A stretch of DNA of 58,295 nt from Dictyobacter arantiisoli (GTDB taxonomy: Bacteria; Chloroflexota; Ktedonobacteria; Ktedonobacterales; Ktedonobacteraceae), in contig NZ_BIXY01000008.1 of NCBI RefSeq assembly GCF_008326305.1, positions 59,918 through 118,212 on the forward strand. The letters run 5' to 3'. Under the pieces are notes generated by a model. The model saw nothing but the letters and a program-made list of their open reading frames with translations, did not search any database and had not been told where the DNA came from. Both the position numbers and the translations under genes were made by a program. This document shows positions 1,696-36,852 of this stretch, one piece after another. Within the stretch, counting starts at the first letter, position 1. Every line of letters begins with the position of its first letter.

Positions 1696-4600
1696 ATGCC
1701 TGGTCTTGCTCAACGCATTGCAACCCTTTCACCAGAGAAGCGCAAGCTTTTTCTGAAGAATATCGCCGAGAAGCGTGAGAATACGGCATCTTATCCAGTC
1801 TTAATGCGGCGTAAAAATGATGATCTGGCACCACTCTCGTTTGCTCAACAGCGTCTCTGGTTTCTTGAGCAATTGGAGCCTGGTCTCTCTACCTATACTA
1901 TTCCGCTGGCTTTACGTTTACATGGCGCGTTCAATGTGTCTGCTCTCGAGCAGACACTACGCGAAATTGTGCGTCGCCATGAAAGCTTGCGTACGCGCTT
2001 TGTCTCTCGCGCTGGTGTAGCGTATCAACAGATTGATCCTATCGAGAGTTTTGTCTTTTCGATTGTCCCTGTTGAGCAGGAGGAGCAGGTACAGAGCTTG
2101 CTTGAGCAGGAGGCACAACAGCCTTTTGATCTGGAGCAGGGTCCCTTGTTTCGGGCATGTCTGTTGTTGCTCTCAGATCGGGAAGCGGTTTTACTGCTGA
2201 CACTGCACCATAGTATCGCCGATGGCTGGTCAATGGGTGTCCTGACGCATGAGCTCGGTCAACTTTATCCAGCTTTTGTGGCTGGTCAGCCCTCACCACT
2301 GCCAGAATTGCCGCTGCAATATGCTGATTATGCGCTGTGGCAGCGCCAATGGTTGCAGGGAGAGGTTCTGGATGTACAACTGGATTATTGGAAAAAGCAA
2401 CTGGGCGGGGCCGAGCCACTGGCATTGCCCACTGATCGTGCGCGCCCAGCCATACAGACACATCGAGGTGCCAGTCAGCGCATTGAACTGTCTGGTGAGC
2501 TGAGCCAGGCACTTAAACTGTTCAGCCAGCGCGAAGGCTGTACGTTATTTATGACATTGCTGGCCGCCTGGCAGGTCCTGTTGAGTCATTACAGTGGACA
2601 GGACGATATCAGCGTGGGTACGCCAATTGCTAACCGCACGCAAGCTCAGCTCGAAGATCTGATTGGTTTTTTCATCAATACATTGGTCTTACGCAGTGAT
2701 CTCTCTGGTAATCCTGATTTTCGTGAAGTTTTACGCCGCGTGAAAGAGGTCTCTCTGGGAGCCTATGCTCACCAGGATATTCCCTTTGAACAACTGGTTG
2801 ATGTGGTACAACCGGAACGTGACCGTAGCCGTTCCCCCCTCTTTCAGGTCCTTTTTGTGCTGCAAAATCTGCCTGAGAAGCAGCAAACATGGACAGATAT
2901 TCGCATTGAGGCGATTGAGATCGAGCATAAGACCGCCAAATTTGATTTGAGCCTGGCGGCTTCAGAAGCACCACAGGGATTAATTTTTGACCTGGAATAT
3001 AATACTGATCTATTTGATGCTGAGACCATTGAACGTTTGTTAGGCCACTGGCAACGCCTGCTGTCAGTTCTGATAACACAACCAGAGATCCCAGTACAGG
3101 AACTTACTTTCCTCAGTTCGCAGGAGCGGCAACAACTGTTGTTTGACTGGAATGAGCCGCAACAGCAATTTCCTGTAGTGGACACCCTGGTACAGCGCTT
3201 TGAGCAGCAAGCCCGGATGCATCCCCAGGCGATCGCAGTGAGTGATGAGCAACAGAGCCTGACCTATGCGCAACTGAATGCCCGGGCGAACCAGTTGGCG
3301 CATGCCCTGCGACGGCAAGGAGTTGAGCCCAATCAATTGGTCGGGTTAAGTATGGACCGTTCTGTGCAGCTACTGGTCGGTCTGCTGGGGATTTTAAAAG
3401 CGAGCGGGGCGTATCTGCCCCTCGATCCGATGTATCCCACCGAGCGTTTGCATTTTATGCTTGCCGATGCCGGGGTAGAGCGCATCGTGACCGAGCCAGC
3501 TCATACCCGGCTCTTTGCTGCGCGGCCCGATCTGCAGCTGTTCCTGCTCGATCCCAGCGAACAGTGTTTTGTCGACGAGAGCATCCAGAATCTGGAGAAC
3601 CGGAACACGCCACAGGATCTGGCCTATGTCATCTATACCTCGGGTTCGACCGGCAAACCCAAAGGGGTCTGTATTCCGCATGCCAATGTCCAGCGTTTAT
3701 TTGCGGGTACCGAGCACTGGTTCTCCTTTGATGCCCGTGATGTCTGGACCTTGTTCCATTCCTATGCCTTCGATTTCTCGGTCTGGGAGATCTGGGGAGC
3801 GCTGCTCTATGGCGGCAAACTGGTCGTGGTTTCCTATGAGACCAGTCGGACTCCGTCAGCCTTTTATCAGTTGCTATTGGATGAGCAGGTCACGATTCTC
3901 AATCAGACCCCTTCGGCCTTTGAGCAGTTGCAGCAGGCGGAAGCCCTGTTTGCAGACTCTTCGACGAAGACGCCGGGTGCGCTGCGGGCCGTGATTTTCG
4001 GGGGCGAGGCGCTGGAATTGGGGCGTCTGCGCCCCTGGTTGCAGCGACATGGAGACGAGCACCCGCAGTTGATCAATATGTATGGCATCACGGAGACGAC
4101 TGTTCACGTCACCTATCGCCGCATTCGCTGGGAGGATATGGAGCAGGGGCGTGGAAGTGTGATTGGTCGGGCGATTCCAGACTTACAGCTCTATGTACTC
4201 AATCGGTGGTTACAACCTGTGCCGATTGGGGTAGCTGGTCAACTCTATGTTGGAGGGGCAGGATTGGCCGCAGGCTATCTCCAGCGCGAGGAACTGACGG
4301 CGCAACGCTTTATCCGCTCGCCGTTCAGTCATGGGGACCAGCGCCTCTATCAGACGGGGGATCTGGTGCGCTATCGCAGCAATGGCGAGTTAGAGTATCT
4401 GGGCCGGATCGATCAGCAGGTCAAGATCCGTGGTTTCCGCATTGAGTTAGGAGAGATTGAGGATCGCTTGCTGAAGCTTGCTGGCATCCGAGCCTGTACG
4501 GTGCAGGTCTCAAGTGATGCTCAGGGTGACAAGCGTCTGGTCGGTTATATCGTGCAGGAAGAGGAGGGGGCCTGGGAAACGGGTTCGTTGCGCCAGCAGT

Positions 4601-7600
4601 TGCGAACCGACCTGCCCGATTACATGGTGCCATCCCTCTTTATCAGCTTGCCCGAGTTGCCACTGACGGCCAATGGAAAACTAGATCGGAACGCTTTACC
4701 TGCGCCTGAGAGTAGTCTGGCGCAATTGGCACTTGAGTATGTCGCTCCACGCACGCCGCTTGAAATGCGACTCGCTGCCATCTGGAGTGCTGTGTTACAG
4801 CATGAAAAGGTTGGCATTCATGCCAACTTTTTTACCCTGGGTGGTGACTCTATTCGCAGTATCCAGATTGTTGCAAAGGCGAAGGAGCAGGAAATCTATT
4901 TTACTTTGCAGCAACTCTTTCAATATCAGACTATTGCTGAGCTGGCTGCACAACTTCAGACGTCACAAACGCAGCTCCCGCTTCAGGAGAGCGTTTTGCC
5001 ATTTGCCTTGATCTCTGAAAAAGATCGTTTGAAGCTACCGGAAGATGTTGAAGATGCCTATCCTCTGGCTTTAATGCAGGCAGGGATGTTGTATCATAGT
5101 CAACTCAATTCTGCCAATGGTATGTATCATGATATAACCAGCTATCATCTTGAGGCAGTGTTTCATCCAGCCTATTTTCAGCAGGCAATCCAACTGTTAG
5201 CTATGCAGCATCCTGTGCTAAGAACTTCTTTTGATATTACGAACTATAGTGAATTTTTGCAGTTAGTACACAAAAATGTGCAGGTCCCTTTCTCTATCCA
5301 TGACATCACCGCTATGACCGAGTTGGAGCAGCGCGAGGCACTCTTGCATTGGATTGAAGAGGACAAACTGCAGGTGCTCAACCTTGCTGAAGCTCCACTC
5401 ATTAGGATTACGGTTCATCTGCGTAGTGAAAATTCATTCCAGTTTTCGCTGACCTGCCATCATGCAATTCTGGATGGCTGGAGTGTCGCTTCGTTTGTGA
5501 CTGAAGTCTTTAAAGTCTATCTGGATCTCTTACAGGGTAAAAAGGATCTGCCTGTTGCGCCTCTTACCCATTCGCATCACGATTTTGTTGCTTTAGAGCG
5601 GTTGCAATTATCTGCGCCCGCTGAACATGTTTACTGGCAGGAGATGCTGGCGAACTATAGTGTGACACCTCTGCCCATATGGTCATCTGTAGAGCCTGAC
5701 GAAGAGGATGTTCCTCAGTTTACCGTCACTATCAGTGCCGAAATGGGAAGAGATCTTAGAAAGCTTGCGCAACGACTGACGGTTCCCTATAAAAGTGTTT
5801 TATTAGCAGCTCATCTTTTTGTCCTGACGATGTTAAGCGGACAACACGATGTTATCACTGGCTATGTCTCGAATGGACGTCCTGAGACAATGGATAGTGA
5901 ACGCATCCTGGGTCTGTTCCTGAATACGCTGCCCTTACGGGTTCATCTTGGTGGTGGCAGCTGGCGGGAACTGATTCAAGCGGTTTTTCAGCAGGAAAAG
6001 GAGTTGCTGGCTCATCGCTGGTATCCGTTGGCAGAAATACAGCGCCGCTATGGTGGGACCGCTCTTTTTAATGTCATCTTTAATTATACGCATTTCCATA
6101 TCTACAAAGATCTGCTCTCTTCTCCCGGGGCCTCCGAGGTGAAAGTGCTTGGGCAACATGGCTTTGAGCGCAATAACTTTGCCTTAAGTACCAATGTAAT
6201 GGTTGATCCGATTTCAGATCAGGTGCGCCTGTCTCTGCAAAGTAATGGGGAGACCTTTACTACCCCACATTTACAGCGTATTGCTGGCTATTATGTACAG
6301 GTCTTAGCAGCCATCGCTCATAATGCTATGGATGCCTACCAGTCGCAAAATGTGCTGCCTGATCAAGAGCAGGAGTGGCTTCTGCGCCGCTGGAATGCCA
6401 CGACACAGCCTTATGCGCGGGACAAGAGTATTCATCAACTCTTTGAGGAGCAGGTGGAGCGCACACCAGATGCACCAGCCATCCATTTTGCGGATAAGCA
6501 GTTTACTTATCGCGAAGCCAATCAACTGGCGAATGTGCTTGCGCATCAGCTTCTGGCATCAGGAGTCGGTCCAGGTATGCTGGTTGGACATTGTATGGAG
6601 CGTTCAGCCGAGATGCTGGTGGCTTTACTGGGTATCCTGAAGACCGGGGCCGCTTATGTTCCTATTGATCCTGAATATCCTCAGGATCGGGTAGCGTATA
6701 TGTTAGAGGATAGCCAGGTTCAGGTAATTGTTTCACAGCCCTGGCTTGTTGCTAGCTTACCAGCACATCAAGCTCAGATTGTTTGCCTGGAAGATCTTCC
6801 CGTTGACATGATTGTGAGTAATCCTGACATTCAGTTTTCTCCGCAACAGCCGGCGTATGTCATTTATACTTCTGGCTCAACGGGTAAACCCAAGGGGACA
6901 ATTCTGCCCCATCAATCTGTGGTTAATTTCTTTGAGAGTATTGCCCGGCGTCCTGGTATGAGCGCGGAAGATCGTATTCTAGCCGTAACGTCACTCTCTT
7001 TTGACATTGCGGTCCTCGAACTACTCCTGCCCTTAACTCTTGGTGCACAGGTGTTTATCGTGAGTCGTGCGGTGGCGACAAATGGAACTGATCTCGTGCA
7101 TTGGCTTGAGAAAACGCGTCCTACCCTGTTGCAGGCTACCCCGGCAACGTGGCGGCTGCTATTGGCGAGCGGCTGGTCAGGTGAAGAGCAAACTTCAAAT
7201 GCTCCGGGTTTGAAGATGCTCTGTGGTGGCGAGGTCTTGCCACAAGAGATTGTCCAGCCATTACTTGAGCGTGGTGCTAGCTTATGGAATATGTATGGAC
7301 CTACCGAAACCACCATCTGGTCAACGCTTGCTCAGGTGGTATCTGAGCAACAGATTCTGATAGGTCAGCCGATCGCTAACACACAGATCTATATCCTTAA
7401 TGCCTGGTTCGCACCAACACCAGTTGGGGTCGCAGGTGAACTGTATATTGCAGGTGATGGCCTGGCCTGGGGATATCTCCATCGAGCAGATTTGACCGCG
7501 GAAAGATTCCTGCCCGATCCTTTTAGTGCTATTCCTGGTGCGCGCATGTATCGTACTGGCGACCTTGCCCATTGGAATGTCGATGGTAAGCTAGCGTGTC

Positions 7601-10600
7601 TGGGTCGTACCGACCGGCAGGTGAAGTTGCGCGGACATCGCATCGAATTGGGAGAGATTGAGACGGTGCTGGCACAGCATCCAGATGTGCAGTCCTGTGC
7701 GGTCATTGTCTATGAAATTGGGGCTGGCAATCAGCAATTAGTTGGATATGTGGTACCTGTGTCAGGTGCGAATCCGACGCAGAGCGAACTACGCCTCTAC
7801 TTACTTGCCGTTCTGCCTGAATATATGGTGCCGAATATCTGTGTCCTGCTGGAAGCCTTACCACTCACACCCAATGGCAAGGTTGATCGGAAGAATCTGC
7901 CAGCACCTGTTGCGCTACCGGAGTCACAAAAAGGGCCACTGGTGGCTCCCCGTAACAGCTTTGAAGAGCTTATTCTAACATTCTGGCGTGAGATTCTGGG
8001 TTATCCACAGATCAGCATTGACGACAATTTCTTTGAGATTGGAGGTCACTCACTGCTGGTCAATCAACTTATCGCACGTTTGCGCTCAACCTTTCATGTG
8101 CAGATCTCTATGCGTAGTATCTTTCAAGCTGCAACAATTCAAGAGCAGGCTGTGGTGATCCAGGAATTGTTGCAGACAGAGCAGGATCTTCTGGTTCCAC
8201 CGCTCCTGCCATTGTCTCGGGATGAGTCTATACCTCTTTCCTTTGCGCAGCAGCGTCTCTGGCTACTGGAGCAACTGGTTGAAGAGAGCAGTGCCTATAC
8301 AATGCCACTGGCATTGAAGGTGCGGGGCAACCTGGATGTTACTGCGCTAGAACAAAGTTTACAGCGTATTGTGGTACGCCATGAGACGCTACGCACAGTC
8401 TTCCTGGATCGCGATGGTGTGCCTGTCCAGGTTATCCTGCCTGTCTCGCCTGTCCATTTGCGCCATCAAGACCTGCGTGGTCTTGATGCTGTGGCGTGTG
8501 AAGCGGAGCTTGAATGTTTAATTCAGCACGAGCTACAACAACCCTTCTCGCTTGCACATGGACCGCTATTGCGGGCCTGTCTCTTCTGGTTGGCGGGGAA
8601 CGAGTATGTGCTGGTTATGGCAATGCACCACATTATCTGGGATGGCTGGTCAATGGGTATATTTGTACGTGAGTTGACCACGCTTTATAAAGCTGAGCAC
8701 GAAAAATCAGATGCTCATCTACCGCACCTTCCAGTACAGTATGCAGATTATGCGAGCTGGCAGCGCAACTGGTTGCAGGGGAAACATCTGAACATGCAAC
8801 TTGCCTACTGGAAAATGCAACTGGCGGGTGCTGATGTTTTGCAGTTGCCGTGTGACCATCCGCGACCAGCGCAACAGACTCAGAATGGGAACATTCTGTT
8901 GAGGCAAATGCCAGCCGAGTTAGCTACACATCTGAAACAACTCAGCCAGCAAGAGGGCGTAACACTCTTTATGCTGCTCCTGGCCGCTTTTCAAACGCTG
9001 CTCAGTCGCTATAGTGGACAGGACGATATCAGCGTCGGTACACCGATTGCTAATCGCGACCAGGTCGAACTCGAACACCTGATCGGCTTCTTCGTGAATA
9101 CCCTGGTGCTGCGGAGCGATCTCTCTGGCAATCCAACCTTTAGCGAACTTCTGCGCAGGGTGCGCGAGACAACCTTAAATGCCTACATGTATAAAGATGT
9201 GCCGTTTGAAAAGGTTGTCGAAGCTGTCCAGCCCGAACGCGATCCCAGCCGCTCTCCCCTCTTCCAGGTGCTCTTTAGCCTGCAGAGTGGGACACAGACA
9301 AACCGTGTTATCGAGGTTCTTGATGATTTATCAATCAGTCCGCTTGAAGTGAGCGGACAGACTGCACGCTTTGATATAAGCCTGATTCTGGCGGATACTG
9401 AGGAGGGTTTGAGTTGTGCAATTGAATATAATACCGATCTGTTTGAGCAAGCTACCATTGAGCGTCTCTTTACGCACTGGCAGACGCTCTTAGCCAGCGT
9501 GGTGAGTAATCCCACACAGCATCTCAGTGAACTTACGCTTCTCTCAGAGCGTGAACGGGAACAAATTGTCTGTACCTGGAATGATACTGATCGTCCTTAT
9601 ACACCAGCTTGCTGGCATCATCTGTTTGAACTCCAGGTTGCGCGTACACCACAACAGGATGCCTTAGTCTTTGGCGAGCAGAGCTTGAGCTATCAGCAAC
9701 TGGATCAGCGCGCGAACCAGCTGGCCCATTATCTGCTCCAGCGGGGTATTCAACGTGGGGATCGGGTCGGAGTATGTATGGAGCGTTCCTTTGAGATGGT
9801 GGTGAGTATTCTGGCGATCTTAAAAGCTGGCGCCGCTTACGTTACTCTGGACCCTGCCTATCCTTTCCAACGCCTGGATTATATGGTCGAGGACGCGCAG
9901 ATCCAGCTTATCCTGAGTCAGCAATCGCTTGCCAACCAGCTATCATTCAGACAGGCACAGTTAGTGTATCTGGACATGCTGGCCCCACGTTTGGCGCAAG
10001 AGAAAGGGAGTTCACCCGATGTCGAGGTCGGGGCGAGCGATCTGGCCTATATCATTTATACCTCGGGTTCTACCGGCAAACCCAAGGGTGTGCTTGTCCC
10101 ACACTATGGTCTTGCGAATCTGGTTGAGACGCAGCAGCAGGCTTTCGCCCTCACCCCAGCAGATCGGATCTTACAATTTGCTTCCATCAGTTTTGATGCC
10201 TCTGTCTGGGATATCGTGGGTGCACTCTGTACGGGAGCGACGCTCTGCCTGGCTCAAGCTGACGAGTTACTCTCACTTCATACGCTGATCGCTTTGATTG
10301 GTCGGCAGCGCATCAGCATGGTCACGCTAGCGCCATCGATGCTGGCACAGTTAAATCCAGAAGATGTCCCTGGCCTGTCCAGAATTGTAGTAGTGGGGGA
10401 GGCCTGTTCAGAGGAATTGATGCGTCGTTGGGTCGAGCCAGCGAAGCGCCGCTTCTATAATGCTTATGGACCGACTGAGAGTACTATCTGTGCGACCATC
10501 ATGGAGTGTACGCCGCAGTTGCAAGGCCGTCCACCGATTGGGAGGCCAATTCCGCGCTTCCAAATCTATCTTTTAGATAGCTCTTTGCAGCCAGTGCCCG

Positions 10601-12882
10601 TAGGGGTTGCCGGCGAACTGCATATCGCTGGCATTGGTCTGGCATGGGGCTACCTGGATAAGCCTGAATTGACGGCAACCAAATTTATTCCTGATCATTT
10701 CAGCGCAAAGCCGGGAGCACGGCTTTATCGTAGCGGTGATCTGGCTCGTTATCTCCCGGATGGCACAATAGAGTTCTTAGGACGTATTGACCATCAAGTG
10801 AAGTTACGCGGTTTGCGTATCGAGTTGGGGGAAATTGAAGATGTCCTCAACCTTCATGATGCAGTGCGTGAATGCCTGGTACTGGTTCGTGAGGATCGAC
10901 CGGGCCATCAATCCCTGGTCGCTTATCTGGTCGGCCCATCCCTGTTGCCAACGGTGGTTGCTGAGCTACGCGAAATGGTGCGTGAGTGTCTCCCTGAATA
11001 TATGTTGCCGTCTGCCTTTATCTTGTTGGATGCGTTTCCCGTGACACCCAATGGCAAAATTGATCGCAATGCACTGCCTGCACCTGAAACACTGGATCGC
11101 GCTACAGAGCAATCCCTGGTCGCGCCACGTAGCGCTCTTGAAATCCAGTTACTGGATCACTGGCGAGCGATATTGGGACGGACCCATATCGGTATCCATG
11201 ATAACTTTTTTGAGCTTGGTGGTCACTCTTTGCTGGCTACCCAACTGTTGACACGCCTGCATAAGGCAGGCATGGAACTGTCACTCCGTAGTATCTTCAC
11301 TGCAACGACTATCGCGGAACAAGCCACCCTGCTTGAGAGGCAATTGCATGGCAATCAATCCATGCACCAGGCTGCTTTGACGGTCGTCGCGAGAAACCAG
11401 CACATACCGCTTTCCTTTGCTCAACAACGCCTCTGGTTCCTGGATCAATTGCATCCAGGTGACGCATCACAAAATATTCCTTTGTTTTTGCAACTGGAAG
11501 GCATGCTTGATCAAGAGGCACTAAGCTGGAGCGTGCAGGAGATTATACGCCGTCACGAGAGCCTGCGTACAACCTTTCAAACGATTGAAGGTGAGGCTGT
11601 CCAATGTATTGCTCCTCCTGACGAGAATTTTGTGCTTCCATACCTGGATTTTAGCGTTATGGAGAGAGACCAGCAGGAACAAGCGGTCAAAGAGTTACTG
11701 TCGCAGGAGGCAGGCCGAGCCTTCATTATTGCCCAGGATCGCCTCTTGCGCACCCTGCTCGTCAAGGTACAGCCACAGAAATATCTGTTCCTGCTAATTA
11801 TGCACCATATTATCACTGATGGTTGGTCAATTGGCATCTTCTCCTCCGAGCTTCAGGCACTCTATCAGGCGCGTGTTCAACGTCAACCATCTCCATTGTC
11901 GGAACCAGTTCTTCACTATGCCGACTTCGCGGTATGGCAGCGGCAATGGTTACAGGGAGATGCCTGTACTGAGCATTTGAACTACTGGAAGCAGCGCCTG
12001 AATGGTGCTCAGGCCCTTGAATATCCTGTAGATCATCCACGGCCTGAAGTAAGCAGCCATCGTGGCGCAAACTATACCTTTACGCTGTCTGAGCAGATAA
12101 CCCGGTCCCTAAAAGCGTTGAGTCAGCAGGAAGCGGCAACCATCTTTATGACGCTACTGGCGGCCTTTAAATGTGTGCTTGCCCGCAAGACTGGAGTTGA
12201 CGACATTGTGGTTGGTACTGATATTGCTAATAGAACGCATCAAGAGACAGAAGGGATGATTGGCTTTTTTGTCAATCTATTGGCACTCCGAACGGATTTG
12301 AGCGGAGAGCCTTCTTTCCGTCAGGTGCTGGCCCGTGTCCGAGAGAATGTGTTGGGGGCATTTACCTATCAGGATCTGCCATATGATGTATTGGTAGATC
12401 GTTTGCACCTCAAGCGTAGCTATGATCGTACCCCATTGATTAATTTGCTCTTTGTGTTACAAAACATTAGTGCTGCACCCGCTATTATCCCGCAAGAGCA
12501 GCAGGAGAGCTTGCGCATTTCCTCTTTACCAAATGAAGTGACCAGTTCAAAATTCGACTTTGCTGTTTTTATGGCGGAAACAGTAGAAGGAGGCATGTCT
12601 GGTTCTATCACGTATAGTACAGATCTCTTTGACGCTGTGAGCATGCAAAATTTGATTGTGGCCTTTGAGCATTTTCTCCAGGCTGTCTTAGCACAACCTG
12701 ATCGTAAGATTTATGAGGTTCCACTGCCTCTCAGCGCCGAAATGAATCGAACAGATGCAACTGGAAATGCACTACAGGTGTTGCATGTAGATAATGGTGT
12801 GCGCAAGCAAGAGCGTCGCTCTGCCAATCTGCGCAAATTAGGCAGCATCAAAGGTAATCGCACGAAACTCACCAACCATTAA
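1696..12882 (+). CDS. Nonribosomal peptide synthetase, C-A(Thr)-T-C-A(Gly)-T-C-A(Phe-like)-T-C
   Basis: A 3728-residue, three-module synthetase with an extra C-terminal condensation domain. Approximate domains: C1 38-480 (HHSIADGW), A1 495-1000, T1 1015-1090 (LGGDSIRS), C2 1118-1560 (HHAILDGW), A2 1575-2070, T2 2082-2155 (IGGHSLL), C3 2175-2620 (HHIIWDGW), A3 2635-3128, T3 3138-3213 (LGGHSLL), C4 3235-3680 (HHIITDGW). A codes read by hand: A1 DFWNIGMVH (Thr), A2 DILQLGMIW (Gly-like), A3 DAWTVVAIC (close to the GrsA Phe code; aromatic or hydrophobic). C2 starts YPLALMQAGMLYH, unlike the LSFAQQRLW of C1, C3 and C4, and has no E domain before it. The protein ends in a basic tail (RKLGSIKGNR) that may dock to the next subunit. 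A GAGGAG motif precedes the ATG. Confidence 0.95.
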   Translation: MPGLAQRIATLSPEKRKLFLKNIAEKRENTASYPVLMRRKNDDLAPLSFAQQRLWFLEQLEPGLSTYTIPLALRLHGAFNVSALEQTLREIVRRHESLRTRFVSRAGVAYQQIDPIESFVFSIVPVEQEEQVQSLLEQEAQQPFDLEQGPLFRACLLLLSDREAVLLLTLHHSIADGWSMGVLTHELGQLYPAFVAGQPSPLPELPLQYADYALWQRQWLQGEVLDVQLDYWKKQLGGAEPLALPTDRARPAIQTHRGASQRIELSGELSQALKLFSQREGCTLFMTLLAAWQVLLSHYSGQDDISVGTPIANRTQAQLEDLIGFFINTLVLRSDLSGNPDFREVLRRVKEVSLGAYAHQDIPFEQLVDVVQPERDRSRSPLFQVLFVLQNLPEKQQTWTDIRIEAIEIEHKTAKFDLSLAASEAPQGLIFDLEYNTDLFDAETIERLLGHWQRLLSVLITQPEIPVQELTFLSSQERQQLLFDWNEPQQQFPVVDTLVQRFEQQARMHPQAIAVSDEQQSLTYAQLNARANQLAHALRRQGVEPNQLVGLSMDRSVQLLVGLLGILKASGAYLPLDPMYPTERLHFMLADAGVERIVTEPAHTRLFAARPDLQLFLLDPSEQCFVDESIQNLENRNTPQDLAYVIYTSGSTGKPKGVCIPHANVQRLFAGTEHWFSFDARDVWTLFHSYAFDFSVWEIWGALLYGGKLVVVSYETSRTPSAFYQLLLDEQVTILNQTPSAFEQLQQAEALFADSSTKTPGALRAVIFGGEALELGRLRPWLQRHGDEHPQLINMYGITETTVHVTYRRIRWEDMEQGRGSVIGRAIPDLQLYVLNRWLQPVPIGVAGQLYVGGAGLAAGYLQREELTAQRFIRSPFSHGDQRLYQTGDLVRYRSNGELEYLGRIDQQVKIRGFRIELGEIEDRLLKLAGIRACTVQVSSDAQGDKRLVGYIVQEEEGAWETGSLRQQLRTDLPDYMVPSLFISLPELPLTANGKLDRNALPAPESSLAQLALEYVAPRTPLEMRLAAIWSAVLQHEKVGIHANFFTLGGDSIRSIQIVAKAKEQEIYFTLQQLFQYQTIAELAAQLQTSQTQLPLQESVLPFALISEKDRLKLPEDVEDAYPLALMQAGMLYHSQLNSANGMYHDITSYHLEAVFHPAYFQQAIQLLAMQHPVLRTSFDITNYSEFLQLVHKNVQVPFSIHDITAMTELEQREALLHWIEEDKLQVLNLAEAPLIRITVHLRSENSFQFSLTCHHAILDGWSVASFVTEVFKVYLDLLQGKKDLPVAPLTHSHHDFVALERLQLSAPAEHVYWQEMLANYSVTPLPIWSSVEPDEEDVPQFTVTISAEMGRDLRKLAQRLTVPYKSVLLAAHLFVLTMLSGQHDVITGYVSNGRPETMDSERILGLFLNTLPLRVHLGGGSWRELIQAVFQQEKELLAHRWYPLAEIQRRYGGTALFNVIFNYTHFHIYKDLLSSPGASEVKVLGQHGFERNNFALSTNVMVDPISDQVRLSLQSNGETFTTPHLQRIAGYYVQVLAAIAHNAMDAYQSQNVLPDQEQEWLLRRWNATTQPYARDKSIHQLFEEQVERTPDAPAIHFADKQFTYREANQLANVLAHQLLASGVGPGMLVGHCMERSAEMLVALLGILKTGAAYVPIDPEYPQDRVAYMLEDSQVQVIVSQPWLVASLPAHQAQIVCLEDLPVDMIVSNPDIQFSPQQPAYVIYTSGSTGKPKGTILPHQSVVNFFESIARRPGMSAEDRILAVTSLSFDIAVLELLLPLTLGAQVFIVSRAVATNGTDLVHWLEKTRPTLLQATPATWRLLLASGWSGEEQTSNAPGLKMLCGGEVLPQEIVQPLLERGASLWNMYGPTETTIWSTLAQVVSEQQILIGQPIANTQIYILNAWFAPTPVGVAGELYIAGDGLAWGYLHRADLTAERFLPDPFSAIPGARMYRTGDLAHWNVDGKLACLGRTDRQVKLRGHRIELGEIETVLAQHPDVQSCAVIVYEIGAGNQQLVGYVVPVSGANPTQSELRLYLLAVLPEYMVPNICVLLEALPLTPNGKVDRKNLPAPVALPESQKGPLVAPRNSFEELILTFWREILGYPQISIDDNFFEIGGHSLLVNQLIARLRSTFHVQISMRSIFQAATIQEQAVVIQELLQTEQDLLVPPLLPLSRDESIPLSFAQQRLWLLEQLVEESSAYTMPLALKVRGNLDVTALEQSLQRIVVRHETLRTVFLDRDGVPVQVILPVSPVHLRHQDLRGLDAVACEAELECLIQHELQQPFSLAHGPLLRACLFWLAGNEYVLVMAMHHIIWDGWSMGIFVRELTTLYKAEHEKSDAHLPHLPVQYADYASWQRNWLQGKHLNMQLAYWKMQLAGADVLQLPCDHPRPAQQTQNGNILLRQMPAELATHLKQLSQQEGVTLFMLLLAAFQTLLSRYSGQDDISVGTPIANRDQVELEHLIGFFVNTLVLRSDLSGNPTFSELLRRVRETTLNAYMYKDVPFEKVVEAVQPERDPSRSPLFQVLFSLQSGTQTNRVIEVLDDLSISPLEVSGQTARFDISLILADTEEGLSCAIEYNTDLFEQATIERLFTHWQTLLASVVSNPTQHLSELTLLSEREREQIVCTWNDTDRPYTPACWHHLFELQVARTPQQDALVFGEQSLSYQQLDQRANQLAHYLLQRGIQRGDRVGVCMERSFEMVVSILAILKAGAAYVTLDPAYPFQRLDYMVEDAQIQLILSQQSLANQLSFRQAQLVYLDMLAPRLAQEKGSSPDVEVGASDLAYIIYTSGSTGKPKGVLVPHYGLANLVETQQQAFALTPADRILQFASISFDASVWDIVGALCTGATLCLAQADELLSLHTLIALIGRQRISMVTLAPSMLAQLNPEDVPGLSRIVVVGEACSEELMRRWVEPAKRRFYNAYGPTESTICATIMECTPQLQGRPPIGRPIPRFQIYLLDSSLQPVPVGVAGELHIAGIGLAWGYLDKPELTATKFIPDHFSAKPGARLYRSGDLARYLPDGTIEFLGRIDHQVKLRGLRIELGEIEDVLNLHDAVRECLVLVREDRPGHQSLVAYLVGPSLLPTVVAELREMVRECLPEYMLPSAFILLDAFPVTPNGKIDRNALPAPETLDRATEQSLVAPRSALEIQLLDHWRAILGRTHIGIHDNFFELGGHSLLATQLLTRLHKAGMELSLRSIFTATTIAEQATLLERQLHGNQSMHQAALTVVARNQHIPLSFAQQRLWFLDQLHPGDASQNIPLFLQLEGMLDQEALSWSVQEIIRRHESLRTTFQTIEGEAVQCIAPPDENFVLPYLDFSVMERDQQEQAVKELLSQEAGRAFIIAQDRLLRTLLVKVQPQKYLFLLIMHHIITDGWSIGIFSSELQALYQARVQRQPSPLSEPVLHYADFAVWQRQWLQGDACTEHLNYWKQRLNGAQALEYPVDHPRPEVSSHRGANYTFTLSEQITRSLKALSQQEAATIFMTLLAAFKCVLARKTGVDDIVVGTDIANRTHQETEGMIGFFVNLLALRTDLSGEPSFRQVLARVRENVLGAFTYQDLPYDVLVDRLHLKRSYDRTPLINLLFVLQNISAAPAIIPQEQQESLRISSLPNEVTSSKFDFAVFMAETVEGGMSGSITYSTDLFDAVSMQNLIVAFEHFLQAVLAQPDRKIYEVPLPLSAEMNRTDATGNALQVLHVDNGVRKQERRSANLRKLGSIKGNRTKLTNH
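3400..4700 (+). repeat. Near-identical adenylation-domain duplication, copy 2
   Basis: Second copy of the 1301-bp block that encodes the Thr adenylation domain, here inside module 1 of the 3728-residue NRPS. Most mismatches with copy 1 are in third codon positions. The coding changes seen include Q/R, V/L, G/D, V/M, Q/H and T/A, and none falls on a specificity-code residue. The sharp edge at the A-T linker points to a domain-sized duplication or gene conversion. Confidence 0.95.
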
Positions 12883-12978: not shown

Positions 12979-15900
12979 ATGGAAACATTTCAACTTCATG
13001 CTTCTCCCTTATCAATGCAGCAGGCGCGTTTATGGGACTTTTATCAGCATACTGCTATATATCATGCGGTCGGCGTCATTGAGCTGGAAGGTGCGGTTGC
13101 TCTGGATCTTCTTCAGGAGGCTATTGCGGACATCGTTGCACGCAATGAGATTTTACGCACAGCCTTCTCTGCCCTGCCAGGTATGGATGTGCCGATGCAG
13201 ATTGTGAGTAAGCCACACTATGGCTATCAAGTCACGTCGCTTGAACACTTATTGCCGGTTGATCAAGATGATTTTCTGAAGAATATCGTGCTACAACTGC
13301 GCACACAGCCAGTTGCTATCAGTCAGATGCCCTGTCTGCATTGCCATCTCCTCACGCTGAACGCTAATCAGCATTTCCTGGTTCTCAGCCTGCCAGCCTT
13401 CTGTGCGGACAGTAAAACCCTCCAGCTTTTGACGTCGGCATTGCAGCAAACATATTATGGCTTGCTCTCTCCTGCTACTAGCGAGCATGAAGAAGAGGAT
13501 GAACCGTTACAATATATCGATGTATCCGCGTGGCAGAACGAGCTGCTGGCAGAAGAAGATGCTGTTGAGCATAGTCTGTTCTGGAAGCATCTGGACTTAA
13601 CCTTGCTCGATACCTTTTCCATGCCAGGTGCCACTGCTGCGACGGAAGCAGCCTTTCGTCCAGAAATTTATCATATTCCTTTTCATGCTTCTCTGATGCC
13701 GACCCTTGAAGCACTGGCCCTTGAGTTCCATGCCTCGATTGATACGCTGCTTTTATCTGTCTGGTATCTGTTCCTGGCCTCGTATACCAATCAGGAAGAG
13801 ATCATCATGGGAGTAGGGAATGATGGTCGCACCTATGATGAACTTGCAACAGCCCTGGGATTATATACCCGCTTTGTGCCTTTGCCCGCTGTTATCGATG
13901 CAGAAGAAACATTTGCACATATCGTGAGCCAGATTGGCAGCACCTATAAAAATGCTATAGAAGAGCAAAACTATTTTTCCTGGGCTGCGCATGAGCACAA
14001 GCAGAGCCAACAATTACCAGTTCAGTATATCTATGAACAGGCTTCATCGTCGTATAGTCATACTAACGCTGAGCCTGTCCATTTTTCATTGCGGGCAAGT
14101 TATCAATGTAGTGAACCGTTTCTGCTGAAGTTAGAGGCGGTACACACTGCTGAAAGCCTGAAATTCCAATTACACTTTGCGGCTAACCGCTTTACGCATG
14201 AGAAGATCGAGCTGCTTGCGCTTGCATTTCAAACCATCTTAGAGGATGCTTTGTCCCATCCTCATCTGCCAGTGAAAAATCTGCACCTGCTTCAACCCTG
14301 GCAGGAAAAACAGTTGCGTACACAATTTCAAGGTCCTATCGTCCAATTTCCCGCTCTCCATCTGGTGGATCTCTTTGAGCAACAGGTGGCACGTAATGCC
14401 TCGGCGCTGGCGGTCAGACATAATGACAGCACCCTGACCTATGGTGAGCTGAACCATCGAGCTAATCTTGCCGCGCATGCTTTGCGGGCCCGGGGCGTTG
14501 GACGGAATACCGTGGTTGGAATCTGCGTTGAGCGTTCCGTTGATATGATTGTGGGTTTGCTGGCGATTCTCAAAGCGGGTGCTGCGTATCTGGCGCTGGA
14601 TGCGCAATTGCCGTTGCAACGGCTGCAGTATCAACTGCAAGATGCTCAGGTGGCTATGGTGGTGACACAGCAAAAGTTGAGTTCGCTCTTTCTGGATTAT
14701 CCAGTTGAGACCTGCACACTTTCTACACTGTATGAGCACAACGTACCTGGCGCTGCTGAGAACGTCCCGGCTGGCATACAGCTCTCCGATCTCGCCTATG
14801 TGATCTATACATCTGGTTCAACTGGTAATCCCAAAGGTGTACTGATTGAGCATCAGAATGTGAGCAATTATATTCAGGGTATGCAGCAGCAATTGGCCTG
14901 GCAAGCTGGTTGGCAGTTTGCGACGGTTTCGACGCTGGCCGCCGATCTTGGCAATACCGTGATCTTTGGTTCACTTATTGCAGGTGGTTGCCTGCATATT
15001 CTGGATTATGAGATTGCAACTTCCGCCTCACGATGGAGTCGCTATCTTCAGCAGCATCCCATTGACGTCCTAAAGATTGTGCCATCTCATATGAGTGCGC
15101 TCCTGTCCGCTGAGACAGAGGTATCAGCCAATGCATTTTTGCCGCGCCAACAGCTTATTCTTGGCGGTGAAGCGCTGAAGCGCACATTATTAGCGCGCCT
15201 GATCGAAATGCAGGCTGGCTGTCAAATCATTAATCACTATGGTCCAACGGAGACGACGATTGGGGTACTGGTTAACCACCATGTGCACATCCAAGAGGAT
15301 GAGATTATTCCTCTCGGTAAACCTCTGAGCAATCTTTCAGCCGTGATTCTCAATGCTGGAGGGAATATGGTTCCAGTCGGGGCGGCTGGCGAGCTGTATA
15401 TTGCCGGTGCGGGGCTGGCACGAGGCTATCTCAATCAGCCAGATCAGACGCAGGCAAAATTTGTGCTGAAAAGATGGAGCGAGCAGGAGTGCGTCCGTTA
15501 TTATCGGACAGGCGATCTGGCTCGTGCTACTTTCGATGGTACTATCGAGTTTCTAGGTCGAGCGGATACGCAGGTAAAAATACGTGGTTTCCGTGTAGAA
15601 CTGGGTGAGATTGAACAGACATTGCAGCAGTGGCCGCAAGTACAGGAATGTATCGTCTTATTGGATGAAGCACAGCCGGGCGAACAACGGCTTGTTGCTT
15701 ATGTCATCGCGACCCAATCCTCAATCCTGGTTGAAAAAGAGTTGAAAGCATTTCTACAAGAGCACCTACCAGCATATATGGTTCCCAATAGCATCATTCA
15801 GCTTGCAGCCTTCCCATTAACCCTCAATGGAAAAATTGATCGCAAGCAGTTACCTGCGCAACAACCCGTCTCTACTGGTAGTAGCGCGTCTGTTCCTACT

Positions 15901-16998
15901 GAGAAAACCTATATCCGTCCACGTGATCATGTTGAAATGAGACTTGCCACTATCTGGTCAAAGATTCTCAATGTGCATACGATTGGTGTGCTGGACGATT
16001 TCTTTGATCTGGGGGGAAACTCTATTATTGCTGTCCGTTTAATGTCATTGATCCATAAAGAATTTCATTGTGATCTAGCTCTTTCCACATTATTCAAACA
16101 TCCTACTCTGGGTGCCTTTGCTCATATTTTGCGTGAAGATGGGCTGGAAGAAATATCTGCCATCATTGTACCATTACAAACGCATGGCGAGCGTCTACCT
16201 TTCTTCTGCGTGCATCCTTCAGGTGGGACCGTGTTTCGCTATCAGGCGTTTGCGCAGGCGCTAGGAGCTGAGCAGCCCTTCTATGGACTTCAGTCGCCGG
16301 AGTATGAGATAGGTAGCCTGCGTTTAGAAGATATGGCCGCTCAGTATGTGCAGGCTATACAAAATATTCAGCCCACAGGTCCCTATCAAATAGGAGGATG
16401 GTCGTTAGGAGGAGTGGTAGCATTTGAGATTGCGCAGCAATTAACACGGCAAGGAGAGAGCGTTTCACTGCTGGCGCTTTTCGATAGTAGCCTGCCACCT
16501 TCATGCCTGTTAGAACCATCCGCACGCACTCCTGGTATCCAGCTGCTCGATGATCGAATAGTAGTCAATGTCTTGCGGGAAGAAGGGGTCTTGTCTCTCA
16601 GTGAAGAGGATGTGATGCGCGCCGAGCCACAGATACAACTGATCCATGCATGGGAGCAAGCCAGGCAGACTAATTTGCTGCCAGCAGACATTGGTTTTGA
16701 GCAATTTCGTCGGCTCGCTTATATGAACTGTCGCAACCTTTTAGCGGTCAAGCAGTATGAGCCGGAAGTATATCCCGGTCGCATTACCTTTTTCCGCTCA
16801 AGTGAAGTTCTGCAATTGCAGCAAAGCCAGCCGAATGCCTTGACGGGCGGCTGGGAACAGCTCTGTCAGCAAGAGATTATTGCCTATGTTGTGCCAGGGA
16901 AGCATAGTGAGATGGTTGACGAGCCATATGTACGAGAACTGGCCCGGTTTCTGACTCTCTCGTTAGGCACACAGGCGCAGAATCTTTCAGCTGCCTGA
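12979..16998 (+). CDS. Terminal NRPS: degenerate C-like domain, A(Asp), T, thioesterase
   Basis: A 1339-residue termination subunit. Residues about 5-435 have the condensation-family fold signature, but the catalytic HHxxxDG site reads SLPAFCADS (137-145), so both His are gone. The A domain (about 452-960) contains AADLGNT and reads D-L-T-K-I-G-H-I-G, which matches the Asp code. The carrier domain (about 981-1055) has DLGGNSIIA. The type I thioesterase (about 1061-1330) shows Ser1142 in GWSLGG, Asp1169 in FDSS and His1309 in GKHSE, a complete triad for hydrolysis or cyclisation. The preceding protein already ends in an intact C domain, so the N-terminal C-like domain is not needed for bond formation. 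It resembles the interface domains of beta-hydroxy-Asp siderophore NRPSs, which are proposed to recruit a hydroxylase. AGAAGGAG lies about 10 nt before the ATG. Confidence 0.93.
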   Translation: METFQLHASPLSMQQARLWDFYQHTAIYHAVGVIELEGAVALDLLQEAIADIVARNEILRTAFSALPGMDVPMQIVSKPHYGYQVTSLEHLLPVDQDDFLKNIVLQLRTQPVAISQMPCLHCHLLTLNANQHFLVLSLPAFCADSKTLQLLTSALQQTYYGLLSPATSEHEEEDEPLQYIDVSAWQNELLAEEDAVEHSLFWKHLDLTLLDTFSMPGATAATEAAFRPEIYHIPFHASLMPTLEALALEFHASIDTLLLSVWYLFLASYTNQEEIIMGVGNDGRTYDELATALGLYTRFVPLPAVIDAEETFAHIVSQIGSTYKNAIEEQNYFSWAAHEHKQSQQLPVQYIYEQASSSYSHTNAEPVHFSLRASYQCSEPFLLKLEAVHTAESLKFQLHFAANRFTHEKIELLALAFQTILEDALSHPHLPVKNLHLLQPWQEKQLRTQFQGPIVQFPALHLVDLFEQQVARNASALAVRHNDSTLTYGELNHRANLAAHALRARGVGRNTVVGICVERSVDMIVGLLAILKAGAAYLALDAQLPLQRLQYQLQDAQVAMVVTQQKLSSLFLDYPVETCTLSTLYEHNVPGAAENVPAGIQLSDLAYVIYTSGSTGNPKGVLIEHQNVSNYIQGMQQQLAWQAGWQFATVSTLAADLGNTVIFGSLIAGGCLHILDYEIATSASRWSRYLQQHPIDVLKIVPSHMSALLSAETEVSANAFLPRQQLILGGEALKRTLLARLIEMQAGCQIINHYGPTETTIGVLVNHHVHIQEDEIIPLGKPLSNLSAVILNAGGNMVPVGAAGELYIAGAGLARGYLNQPDQTQAKFVLKRWSEQECVRYYRTGDLARATFDGTIEFLGRADTQVKIRGFRVELGEIEQTLQQWPQVQECIVLLDEAQPGEQRLVAYVIATQSSILVEKELKAFLQEHLPAYMVPNSIIQLAAFPLTLNGKIDRKQLPAQQPVSTGSSASVPTEKTYIRPRDHVEMRLATIWSKILNVHTIGVLDDFFDLGGNSIIAVRLMSLIHKEFHCDLALSTLFKHPTLGAFAHILREDGLEEISAIIVPLQTHGERLPFFCVHPSGGTVFRYQAFAQALGAEQPFYGLQSPEYEIGSLRLEDMAAQYVQAIQNIQPTGPYQIGGWSLGGVVAFEIAQQLTRQGESVSLLALFDSSLPPSCLLEPSARTPGIQLLDDRIVVNVLREEGVLSLSEEDVMRAEPQIQLIHAWEQARQTNLLPADIGFEQFRRLAYMNCRNLLAVKQYEPEVYPGRITFFRSSEVLQLQQSQPNALTGGWEQLCQQEIIAYVVPGKHSEMVDEPYVRELARFLTLSLGTQAQNLSAA

Positions 16999-21192: not shown

Positions 21193-24100
21193 CTATTCGC
21201 CCAGATCGATTTCAGCTAGCAGATATTCCAATTCTTCCTGGCTCACTTCAAGATCGGGAAAATCGGATGGTGTATAGATCGTTTCGGATTGTGGTGTCTG
21301 GGCCAGTGCGATGATAGCTTGTAAGGCCTGTATATAGGCATGAGCCAGGCCGACAATCGTTTCGCGCTTATGAATCTGTGGGCTAAATTCCCAGGAAACA
21401 TGCAGCTCTCCTGTTTGAATGAGACTGTTGATTGCCAGCAGATGGCTACGTGTACTCTCCTGATGATGCGTGGGTCCAGGTGATGGTTTGAGCTGGCTAA
21501 ATGCAGTCCCTGGATTCGATGAAGCGGCCCCCAGTTGTCCTAAGTAGTTGAAAACAATCTGTGGCTGTCGGCATCCCTGAAGTTCTCTGCTCAACGAAGT
21601 GCTTGTATTCAGGTAGCGTAGAATACCATAGCCAATGCCATGTTGTGGGATACAACGCAAATGTTCTTTGAGCTGTTTCAGTGTTTCAAGCGTACTTGCA
21701 TCTGCTGGTATGGTAAGTTTGACTGGAAAGAGAGAGGTAAACCAGCCAACGGTACGAGAGAGATCACTGTTGGCGAAGAGTTCTTCTCGTCCGTGTCCTT
21801 CCAGGTCGATCAAAACGTCTTCGTGATTACTCCAGCGGGCAAGTACCTGTGCTAACGCTGTCAGCAGAACATCATTTATCTGTGTATGATACATTTCTGG
21901 TAATGTTTCCAGCAATATACGTGTTTCTGCAGTTGGAAGGATAACTTCAACCTGTTCAATATCATGACTTTGTTCCTGCGTATCATAATCAACTGGAATT
22001 GATTGATGAGTACCGCTGGTCTCACGCAACCAGTATTCGGCTTCTTGTTGAGCCTGTTCTGCCTGGGCGTAGGTCACCAGATGTTCTGCCCAGCACTGAA
22101 ACGAAGTGGTTTTCTTTGGTAACTGAATAGATGTATGCTGGCAACATTGTTGATACGCTGTTTGCAAATCATCGAGCAAGATGCGCCATGAGACACCATC
22201 AACCGCCAGATGGTGAATGATGAGGAGCAGTTGATCCGGCGTCTCTCTTTGATCCAGATGGAAGTAAACGGCTTTAAACAAGGGTCCCTGCGCAATATCT
22301 AATGACGCCTGAGCTTGAGCCTCTTTATCCAACATCTTGCGTTGTTGTTCCGCTTCTGGTAGCGCTGAAAGGTCAACATAGTCGAAATCAAGAGGTGCGC
22401 CTGGTGCATCGTTGCGTTGTTGCCAGCCTGTTTCTGTATAGGTGAAGCGCAAGCGTAGCGCGTCATGGTGTTCGAGTAGTGCTGCCAGCGCCTGTGTGAG
22501 ATAGTGATAATTGATAGCTCCTGTGATTGAAACCAGGACAGATTGATTCCAGTAGTCTGGATGAGGTTGTTGTTGTGCAAAAAACCACTGTTGAATTGGC
22601 GTTAATGCCACCGGCCCTGTGACAGGTTCCTGTTGGGCTTGTACCGTGGGTGTATGATTGACAACCTGGCTCAATTGCTCGATGGTTTGATATTGAAAGA
22701 GTTGCTTGGGTGTCAGGTGTAATCCGAGCTGATTTGCTCGTCCGATAATCTGGATACTCAAGATAGAATCGCCTCCCAGGGAGAAGAAGTTATCTTGAAT
22801 TCCCACGCGTTCCAGGTGCATGATTTCAGCCCAGACATCTGCAAGTTTTTGCTGAATATCGTTTTGTGGTTCAATATAGTGTCTTTCACTCTCTTGCACA
22901 ATGCTCTCTCTCTCAGGGAGCGCCTGACGATCAACTTTCCCATTGTGATTGAGTGGTAGTGCCTCCAGGAAAACGATGGTGGAAGGCACCATATAGTGTG
23001 GCAGTTTTTCTTGCAGGTGAGCCTGTAGCTCTGCCTCACTCAGCTCCTCTCCTGGTTTTCTGACGACATATGCGACCAGTTGTTTGGTGCCCATATGATT
23101 CTGACGAGCCAGCACAATATTCTCTTGTACCGCAGGCTGCGATCCTATCGTCGCCTCAATCTCTCCAAGCTCAATACGGAAACCGCGTATCTTGACTTGA
23201 TGATCAATACGGCCCAGATATTCTATATCGCCGTTGGGCAGGCGACGTGCTAGATCCCCAGAGCGATAGAGTCGCGCACCTGGTTCGCTACTAAATGGAT
23301 GAGGGACAAAGCGCTGGGCTGTTAAATCTGGTCTGTGTAAGTAACCGCGGGCGATACCAGGGCCTCCCACATACATCTCTCCGGCCACACCCAGCGGTGC
23401 TGGTTGGCCATAATGATCCATGATGACCACGTGGAGATCATCAATCGGAAGGCCAATCACGCTTCCGAGATTATTGGAGAGCTCTTTTTCTGTGATTGGA
23501 CGATAGGTAACATGCACAGTTGTTTCTGTGATACCATACATATTCACCAATTGGGGCTGTTGATCTCCATGGATAGAGAACCAGGAGCGTAAGCTTTGGA
23601 GTTCTAATGCCTCTCCTCCGAAGATAACGAGCCGCAGGGCTAATTGCTTCCGTTGTTCCGCCACACGTTCAATTTGCATCAATTGATTGAATGCCGATGG
23701 TGTTTGATTAAGTACAGTGACCCTGTGGGTATGTAATAACTGATAAAACAATTCTGGCGAACGACTGATCCAGAATGGTACAACGACCAGGCTTCCTCCA
23801 TGAAGTAGGGCTCCCCAGATCTCCCAGACTGAGAAATCAAAGGCGTACGAATGGAAGAGTGTCCATACATCCCGATTATCAAAGTTATAGTACGACGCTG
23901 TCGCTGTAAAGAGACGGATGACATTGGCATGTGAGACCACCACGCCCTTTGGATTGCCGGTAGAACCAGAGGTGTAGATGATATACGCTGCATTTTCTGG
24001 ATCTGCCGTCTGGATTGGATTGAACACCTCCTCCAGTGAGAGGAGTGGATCAATTGCATCCAGACCAATGACGTATTCGCTGATGATCGGCAGCTTCTGC

Positions 24101-27100
24101 CTGAGGTGCTCTTGCGTGAGTATAATCGAGATATGGGCGTCTTCGAGAATATAGGCCAGGCGCTCAGGTGGATAGGTTGGATCAAGAGGAACATAGGTTC
24201 CTCCTGCCTTAAGGATGGCCAGAATACCAATGAGCAATTCAAGAGAACGTTCCACGCACAGGCCGACGTTGACATCGGGTCCGACTCCAAGCTGACGTAA
24301 GTACCAGGCCGTTTGATTCGCTCGTCGATTTAGTTCCTGATAATTCAGCGTTTCATGTTCACAGATAACTGCGGTAGAGAAGGGCGTTTGTTCTACCCGG
24401 GCTTCAAAGATCTCATGTAAGGTCTGCCCCACCGGGAATGAGCGTGTTGTCTCTGCGATAGTCGCTTTGAGGTGTTCATGCTCGCCCTTTGTCCAGAGCT
24501 GTATCTCTGTGAGTGGGCGATCCGCTTTCTGCGTGAAGTCTACTAATATCTGTTCAAGCTGTTGCAACATCTGCGTGATGGGAGCAGACGAGAAACGCTC
24601 TCGATCATAAAGCACTTTGAATTTGAGCTGCTGTCCAGGTATCACTATCAGTGTGATGGGATAACTCGTTTGCTCTGCTACTTTTATGCTCTCAAGAACT
24701 GTTGCGATATGTTCATTCTCGCCACTGATTGCAGAGGAGTCGAGCGGATAATTTTCAAAGACGAGCAGGCTTTGAAAAAGTTGTGTACCGTGTGGGATCT
24801 CGCTCCAGGATTGTATCTGTGCCAGTGGTGTGTATCCATATTGCAAGATTTCGGTCTGTTGTTCATGGAGCTTGTAGAGCCACTTCTGAACGGAGATCTG
24901 CGGTTCGAGTTGTACGCGAACTGGGAGTGTATTAATGAGCAGACCTACCATTTTCTCAATATCTGTGATTGTGGCGGTCCGTCCTGACGTGACTGCGCCA
25001 AAGATGACATCGTTTTCACCACTATAATGGCTGAGCAGGAGAGCCCAGGCACCTTGTATCAGTGTATTAATAGTGACATGTTCCTGGCGAGCCAATTGGG
25101 TCAGTGCTTGTGTTGCCTGTATCGAGAGTGTGCCCGCCCACTCATCATAGCCAGATTGTTGAGCCTCTTGTTGTGTATGATCGATACCAAGTGCAGTCGG
25201 TGCGGAGAAGCCGCGCAATGTCTCCTTCCAGAACTCCTGTGCTTTCTGCATATCTTGCTGGCGTAACCAGCGGATATATTCTCGATAGGGTGGTCGATTT
25301 ACCTGACCTATCAATTGCTGTTTTTCCAGTGCTGCATAGGATTTAAAGAACAATTCAAGTACGAGTGGGAGGCTCCAGCCATCGAGTAGCAAGTGATGAT
25401 ATGTCCAGACCATAGTATACTCTTCATCACTTAGACGGGCGATAAACAAACGCATCAACGGGGCCTGGGAGAGTTGAAAGCCGCGCAAACGGTCTGTATG
25501 GTGGTATTCCTTTATGCGTTCTTGTTGTTGTTCGCCGGTCAGATGCCGCCAGTCTTGTCGTTCGACTGGTAGAGAAACGTCTTGATAGACCACCTGATGA
25601 GCTTCCTCCAATCCTTCCCACCAGAAACCTGTTCTCAAGATAGTATGATTCTGTATAACATGTGTCCAGGCATCGAAGAAGGTTTGCTCATTGAAACCTT
25701 TTTCAAAGGTCATGCCCACCTGAATAACATAGTCACCATGGTCAGGCTCATAGAAAGAATGGAAGAGCAAACCTTGTTGGAGTGGTGTGAGCGGATAGAT
25801 ATCCTCAATATGACGACTATTCTTTAAGTGCAAATCGATCTGTGGCTGTGTCAGAAGTGCCATTGGGAAGTCTGAAGGTGTATAGCCACCGGCCTCGGGT
25901 TGCTGACAATGCTCAATGATTGCACGCAGGGTCGCCATAAATTCTTCCGCAAGTTCGCTAATGGTCTCGGGATGATAGATGTTCTGACTATACGTCCACT
26001 CAAATTGGATCTTACCATTGATGATGCGACAGGCTACGTCCAGCAAGTGACGGCGCAAGCCGTGTGGACTATAATCTGAACCGAATTTCTCTTTCGCGAG
26101 CGCAAACATTTGGTCTTCGGAGAGTACTTGATGAAATTGTCCCAGATAGTTAAAGCTGATCATTGGTGTCGGAAGCTCAGCCAGTTGGGACCTTATAGAT
26201 TCTGGCGCGAGATAGCGTAACAAACCATAGCCAATACCATGCCCGGGCAGATTATGAAGTTGCTCTTTCACAGTTTTGATGGCTTGGTCCAGGGCATTAC
26301 ACCCGCTGAGATCAAAGTGGACTGGATAGATACTGGTAAACCAGCCGATTGTACGTGAGACATCTAATCCAAAAAGATCTTCCCGCCCATGACCTTCAAG
26401 GTTAATGGTGATCTGCTCTTTTCCACTCCAGCGGGTGAGTGTGAGTGCCAGGGCTGTCAGTAAGATATCATTCATGTGTGTCTGATAGAGTGGTGGAACA
26501 TCATAGAGGAGTGCATGTGTCTCCTCCTGGGTGAAGGCAACCTCAAGCGTGTCTGCAGATGCGACGGTATTTCTGCCGTCGGCTCTGTCTGTTGGGAGTT
26601 CAACTGTGAATTTCTGACCTTGCTGTTGCCAGTAAGCGAACTCTTGAATGCATGCTTCCTCCTGCGCATATTCCTGCATATGCCGGGACCATTGTTGGAA
26701 CGAAGCCGTCTTAGGGGGAAGTTGGACCTCTTGCTGGATATCGAGTTGTTCGCAGATATTCTGAAGATCTTCAAGCAAGATGCGCCAGGAAACGCTATCA
26801 ATGATGAGATGGTGAATAGTAATGAATAAGCGCACCTGCTCATTCTCTCCAGGCTTGAAATATAGAACGCGTAGGAGCGGGCCATGTTCAATATTCAGAC
26901 TTTTTTGTGCCTCATCTGTATGGGTGAGCATGGCCTGTGATTGCTCCTCAGGTGATAGATGTGAGATATCAATAACCTGGCAGAGAACGGAAGACGTTAA
27001 TGTTTCGTCGACGCTTATCTCCTGGCGCCAGGTGCCGTCCTCCCGGGTAAAGCGCATGCGGAGCGCATCATGATGACGCATCAGATAAGCAAAGGCCTGT

Positions 27101-36774: not shown

Positions 36775-36852
36775 AAGGTTTATCACCCTCCGCGTCTATG
36801 TAGCTGTGTCATAGAGCTTAACCATTTTTGTCTGCTTTATTTTTCAAGCATA

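Follow-up and report, generated by a model that had tools for sequence, protein, structure and literature searches.

An interface domain before an aspartate module in a Dictyobacter arantiisoli peptide synthetase and its likely TauD-type partner

Described interface domains and the domain of the window

Interface domains were reportedly described by Reitz et al. in PNAS in 2019 from the nonribosomal peptide synthetases (NRPSs) of β-hydroxyaspartate (β-OH-Asp) and β-OH-His siderophores, in which a dead domain of the condensation (C) superfamily stands before an Asp or His adenylation (A) domain and is paired with an Fe/2-oxoglutarate hydroxylase; to our knowledge, their role has so far been proposed rather than proven. 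The glycopeptide X domain is likewise a dead C-fold domain that recruits an oxygenase, in that case P450s, and it precedes the thioesterase (TE), not an A domain. The interface domain is accepted as a subtype of C domain (PMC10212144), with a profile in antiSMASH 8 (PMC12230676). Cyanochelin B, made by one such system, bears L-threo-β-OH-Asp (PMC12628792). Its cluster, a plasmid locus of Leptolyngbya sp. NIES-3755, encodes BAU16013, which ends in a C domain followed by a TauD hydroxylase, and BAU16012 (CcsI), which consists of an interface (C*) domain, an A domain with the code DLTKIGHVG and a carrier (T) domain. Empedopeptin, a Massilia lipopeptide with two β-OH-Asp residues, has its Asp residues hydroxylated by separate stand-alone dioxygenases, EmpA and EmpB, which serve several residues (PMC8069584), and turnercyclamycin is named as a further lipopeptide with β-OH-Asp (PMC12971057); the comparison with them covers the lipopeptides and, for empedopeptin, the dioxygenases.

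We analysed a window of 58,295 nucleotides from the 7.2-Mb genome of the soil bacterium Dictyobacter arantiisoli (C8:59918-118212, C8 being contig NZ_BIXY01000008.1); coordinates without a contig prefix are those of the window. Profile searches resolved the 1339-aa product of ORF 12979-16998 into a C-family, an A, a T and a TE domain, the last of which makes this module the final one. The upstream protein (1696-12882) ends with an intact C domain. The features concerned are as follows.

11404-12747, forward strand: intact C domain (HHIITDG) closing the upstream subunit, presumed to form the peptide bond in trans (profile match, motif)
12979-14316, forward strand: interface (C*) domain, residues 1-446, a catalytically dead C fold (PF00668; clade with 25 other interface domains, support 100; AlphaFold)
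13387-13413, forward strand: altered C3 motif SLPAFCADS, residues 137-145 (alignment; D144 invariant)
14374-15834, forward strand: A domain with the Asp code DLTKIGHIG (profile match, specificity code)
15940-16125, forward strand: T domain, presumed site of Asp hydroxylation (profile match for the domain; hydroxylation putative)
16201-16950, forward strand: TE domain, marking the last module (profile match)

The PF00668 match of the window domain (residues 9-446) reaches 168 bits, which is weak for this genome, where most ordinary C domains score about 400 bits. On the HHxxxDG columns of the alignment it reads LPAFCAD, so that the catalytic second His is now Ala while the Asp is retained, and this Asp (D144) is invariant across 48 interface domains. 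An AlphaFold model (pLDDT 90) matched C domains in the PDB with a best Z score of 38.5, and X domains ranked lower in the same match list (Z 33.4). The A domain that follows directly carries, besides its Asp signature, the AADLGNT segment. The degenerate C-like domain before an Asp A domain, behind a subunit with an intact terminal C domain, had been noticed in the initial annotation and is confirmed in each of these elements.

Recurrence, phylogeny and selection

Among 77 C-family matches in the genome, ten share this altered motif, the window domain included, and all ten form the N-termini of subunits:

C8:31787, 51733 and 72896; C22:18343, 30412, 36349, 44201, 64429 and 72356; C17:29619

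Seven of them are followed by Asp and three by Asn A domains, whereas the 39 modules with ordinary C domains include two Asn and no Asp. With these ten domains as queries, the GTDB genome collection yielded 78 loci, mostly in cyanobacteria, with others in Acidobacteria, Nitrospira and Ktedonobacteria. Over all loci examined, C* domains were N-terminal in 117 of 117 cases, and 94 of the 117 had a TauD no more than 600 bp upstream, either fused after the preceding C domain (47) or stand-alone (47). Behind them stood 75 Asp and 10 Asn A domains, and 15 whose code, DSALIAEVW, is His-like. An Asp, Asn or His A domain follows C* in 10/10 cases in this genome and in 93/98 at the other loci; for ordinary C domains the corresponding figures are 2/39 and 8/129.

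The initial annotation had proposed to place the domain in a tree, and we did so with 70 C-superfamily domains. The 26 C* rows formed one clade with a support of 100, separate from LCL, DCL and E domains; the window domain did not cluster there with catalytic LCL or DCL domains or with E domains. The clade holds CcsI, from the β-OH-Asp module of cyanochelin B, as well as Variovorax members; CcsI also shares with the window protein the order C / interface-A(Asp)-T, and its Asp code is the DLTKIGHVG given above. The nearest named relatives of the window domain are from Dictyobacter vulcani (66% identity) and Ktedonobacter. Common descent with the cyanochelin B domain, recurrence, near confinement to Asp, Asn and His modules and TauD neighbours together mark the region 12979-14316 as an NRPS interface domain of known kind, a family membership that we regard as solid on sequence grounds and that upholds the C / interface-A(Asp) order suggested initially.

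Chance or isolated decay of the motif was rejected on account of the recurrence and of the dN/dS between the window domain and its D. vulcani ortholog, which at 0.21 indicates purifying selection, so that the domain is not free to decay and a relic is argued against. The adjoining A domain gave 74% identity and a dN/dS of 0.14, that is, C* evolves slightly faster. Across 47 Ktedonobacteria genomes, a hydroxylase was present in 6/6 with C* and in 1/41 without; in total these genomes hold 39 C* domains and 18 TauDs, or about twice as many of the former.

Interface domains and hydroxylases also appear to have evolved together. The type of partner (fused or stand-alone TauD) changes six times on the C* tree, while shuffles gave no fewer than 24 changes and 200 within-locus swaps no fewer than 12. 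C* and TauD correlated in their pairwise distances at 0.71, as against a mean of 0.52 and a maximum of 0.64 when TauDs were swapped within loci. Among Asp pairs, the partial correlation given the A and upstream C domains was 0.35 for C* and TauD, about 0 for A and TauD and 0.38 for the upstream C domain and TauD. Since C*, the upstream C domain and TauD are intercorrelated, linkage, that is, co-inheritance of neighbouring genes, may account for part of this signal.

Several observations concern the outer range of the family. His-like A domains (DSALIAEVW) follow interface domains at L065, L035, L116 and other loci, and most of these interface domains have TauDs that belong to one clade; three further interface domains precede A domains with the codes SSRDVAMGI or SSRDLTMGT. 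Clear members among the proteobacterial reference loci came only from Variovorax (L114) and Methylocystis (L116). Loci with TauD from Burkholderia, Caballeronia, Methylomagnum and Vibrio gave no C* match with profiles built from Ktedonobacteria, perhaps owing to that origin of the profiles. A C-family domain of high divergence, which reads DGLFADG in the columns of the active site, occurs at residue 1541 of the protein encoded at C58:23853-36437 (reverse strand); it lies on a long branch near E domains and is not an interface domain by these profiles.

Hydroxylases of the genome and their assignment to modules

The genome encodes six TauD-family proteins, all within NRPS regions that bear C* domains:

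C22:30412 and C17:29619 (positions of the C* subunits): two TauDs, each fused after the C-terminal C domain of the subunit preceding the C* subunit
C8:50718-51743: TauD overlapping the start of the C* gene at C8:51733
C22, just ahead of the C* at C22:36349: TauD
C22, divergent from the C* at C22:18343: TauD
C8:10884-12074, reverse strand: TauD following a C-T-C protein

The initial annotation saw no Fe/2-oxoglutarate hydroxylase, which is correct for the window itself; all six TauDs lie outside it and were missed for that reason, and two of them belong to the same cluster. A search upstream for a TauD-type enzyme, likewise suggested there, leads to these two genes, C8:50718-51743 and C8:10884-12074, at 8.2 kb and 48 kb upstream of the window, respectively. 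No hydroxylase gene adjoins the C* module of the window, and the nearest TauD, which ends 21 kb upstream of that module, is of the Asn type. The PF05118 (AspH-type) profile had no match in the genome and none in control genomes either, and is therefore uninformative.

The two TauDs of the cluster fall in different parts of the TauD tree. C8:50718, which sits before an Asn module, groups (support 99) with five others whose known partners are all Asn, namely its D. vulcani ortholog, a fused Asn partner on C22 and three cyanobacterial Asn partners. C8:10884 groups (support 100) with C22:16793 and a K. robiniae TauD encoded immediately before a C* from the window domain's own clade. The residues around the metal site are HNESSH in both C8:10884 and the cyanochelin B enzyme, and HNENSF in C8:50718 and the other Asn partners. 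By these sequence comparisons, the Asp-type C8:10884-12074 is the likely trans-acting partner of the window domain, C8:50718 more likely serves the Asn module to which it is coupled, and, judged from tree matching and counts, the Asp modules at C8:31787 and in the window probably share C8:10884.

We therefore consider a scheme in which the C-terminal C domain of the upstream subunit would form the peptide bond in trans, and the interface domain would dock a TauD-type Fe(II)/2-oxoglutarate hydroxylase next to the carrier domain that bears the Asp, giving β-OH-Asp. We infer that hydroxylation takes place at the Asp of the window module; the TE would then release or cyclise the peptide with β-OH-Asp as its last residue. 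C8:10884-12074 would serve the two Asp modules of the cluster in trans, and its likeness to the cyanochelin B enzyme would make the residue L-threo-β-OH-Asp. We give this explanation as a whole, docking and hydroxylation with C8:10884-12074 as the likeliest partner, a probability of about 0.74. The cyanochelin B system carries its hydroxylase as part of the preceding subunit, whereas the window module has none next to it and its presumed partner is encoded separately, far upstream. The less ordinary features are a module apart from any hydroxylase gene and one enzyme likely shared between modules.

A tentative extension, which we hold at somewhat less than even odds, is that one assembly line carries separate Asp and Asn sets of interface domain and hydroxylase, that a stand-alone hydroxylase of an otherwise fused subtype serves several interface modules in trans, with the interface domain and not the gene position determining the match, and that the Asn sets, which cyanobacteria also have, form a β-OH-Asn branch. 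The data add an apparent Asn branch to the interface system. Ktedonobacteria, whose genomes have as many as eleven interface modules and three hydroxylases, offer a natural test of module choice by the interface domain; if it is this domain that directs a trans hydroxylase to its module, β-hydroxylation could be moved between NRPS modules together with it.

The orthologous cluster of D. vulcani keeps three interface domains and two TauDs, the latter 91-92% identical to their C8 counterparts. There, the gene of the 5197-aa NRPS ortholog is followed by those of the C-T-C protein and the Asp-type TauD, a succession that orders the assembly line. In D. arantiisoli, the 5197-aa NRPS (21193-36786, reverse strand) and the C-T-C protein (C8:12046-15153, reverse strand) are 66 kb apart, while their D. 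vulcani orthologs are neighbours (C4:222279-239859); a rearrangement has thus separated the two in one of the genomes.

Three other readings have to be weighed against docking of the hydroxylase. The window domain could be a true family member that has lost its hydroxylase, and now only supports, structurally, the A domain of a module that incorporates plain Asp; the lack of an adjoining TauD, the slightly faster evolution of C* than of the A domain and the excess of C* over hydroxylases in Ktedonobacteria all agree with this. Yet the domain is still under purifying selection and is kept alongside two TauDs in the D. vulcani cluster, and among the 47 Ktedonobacteria genomes C* was never found without TauD, so we regard such an orphan as unlikely. 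That the dead C domain mainly joins subunits through the C-terminal C domain of its partner, unrelated to hydroxylation, would suit the invariably N-terminal position and the upstream subunits, which end in C or C-TauD in the main clusters; other subunit junctions of the same genome, however, do without C*, and C* is nearly confined to Asp, Asn and His modules and tracks both the presence and the type of hydroxylase, which leaves this reading very improbable.

The initial annotation had instead envisaged that a P450 is recruited to hydroxylate Asp, as by X domains. A P450 gene does lie in the window (36916-38136), directly upstream of a cluster NRPS gene, and X domains share the C fold, the only level at which we compared them with the window domain. 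Its D. vulcani ortholog (85%), however, is on contig C1, away from the cluster on C4, where a search at E 1e-30 gave no P450; a 43% relative neighbours an NRPS that has no interface domains; and the window domain is N-terminal, before an A domain, and not between the last T domain and the TE. With the linkage to the cluster not kept and TauDs present in it, P450 recruitment was rejected, and we see next to no chance of it.

Product and surroundings of the cluster

Unlike the siderophore NRPSs with interface domains, the cluster includes Asn modules, has its hydroxylase away from the window module and lacks a gene for a siderophore-uptake binding protein: the sole match to PF01497 in the genome is on another contig, and none was found near the cluster. 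The siderophore hypothesis was set aside for lack of a nearby PF01497 gene, and the product may as plausibly be a lipopeptide that depends on calcium or acts on the cell wall as a siderophore. Interface domains are tied here to a cluster without a gene for a siderophore-binding protein, a point of importance for software that predicts metallophores from hydroxylases of this kind. A β-OH-Asp lipopeptide, thought unusual at the outset, has precedents in empedopeptin and turnercyclamycin.

Two 300-nt stretches of the window (1-300 and 3400-3699), which lie in consecutive Thr-type (DFWNIGMVH) A domains, are 99% identical, and the repeat may extend upstream of the window start. At this repeat, the NRPS gene starting at C8:51733 is broken by a frame change within an A domain (C8:59810-60249; window 1-332), through either an assembly error or a genuine interruption of the gene.

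The cluster further contains FAAL, two ABC half-transporter genes, a D-Ala-D-Ala ligase gene and genes for an ornithine cyclodeaminase family protein and a PLP-dependent enzyme (C8:25125-26195 and C8:27782-29023). We take this pair to be of the kind that makes 2,3-diaminopropionate, whose supply it suggests, and A domains with the code DIWE(L/V)TADD are candidate users. The D-Ala-D-Ala ligase gene (C8:20899-22014, reverse strand) is kept in D. vulcani, and self-resistance to a cell-wall-active product is a possible role for it.
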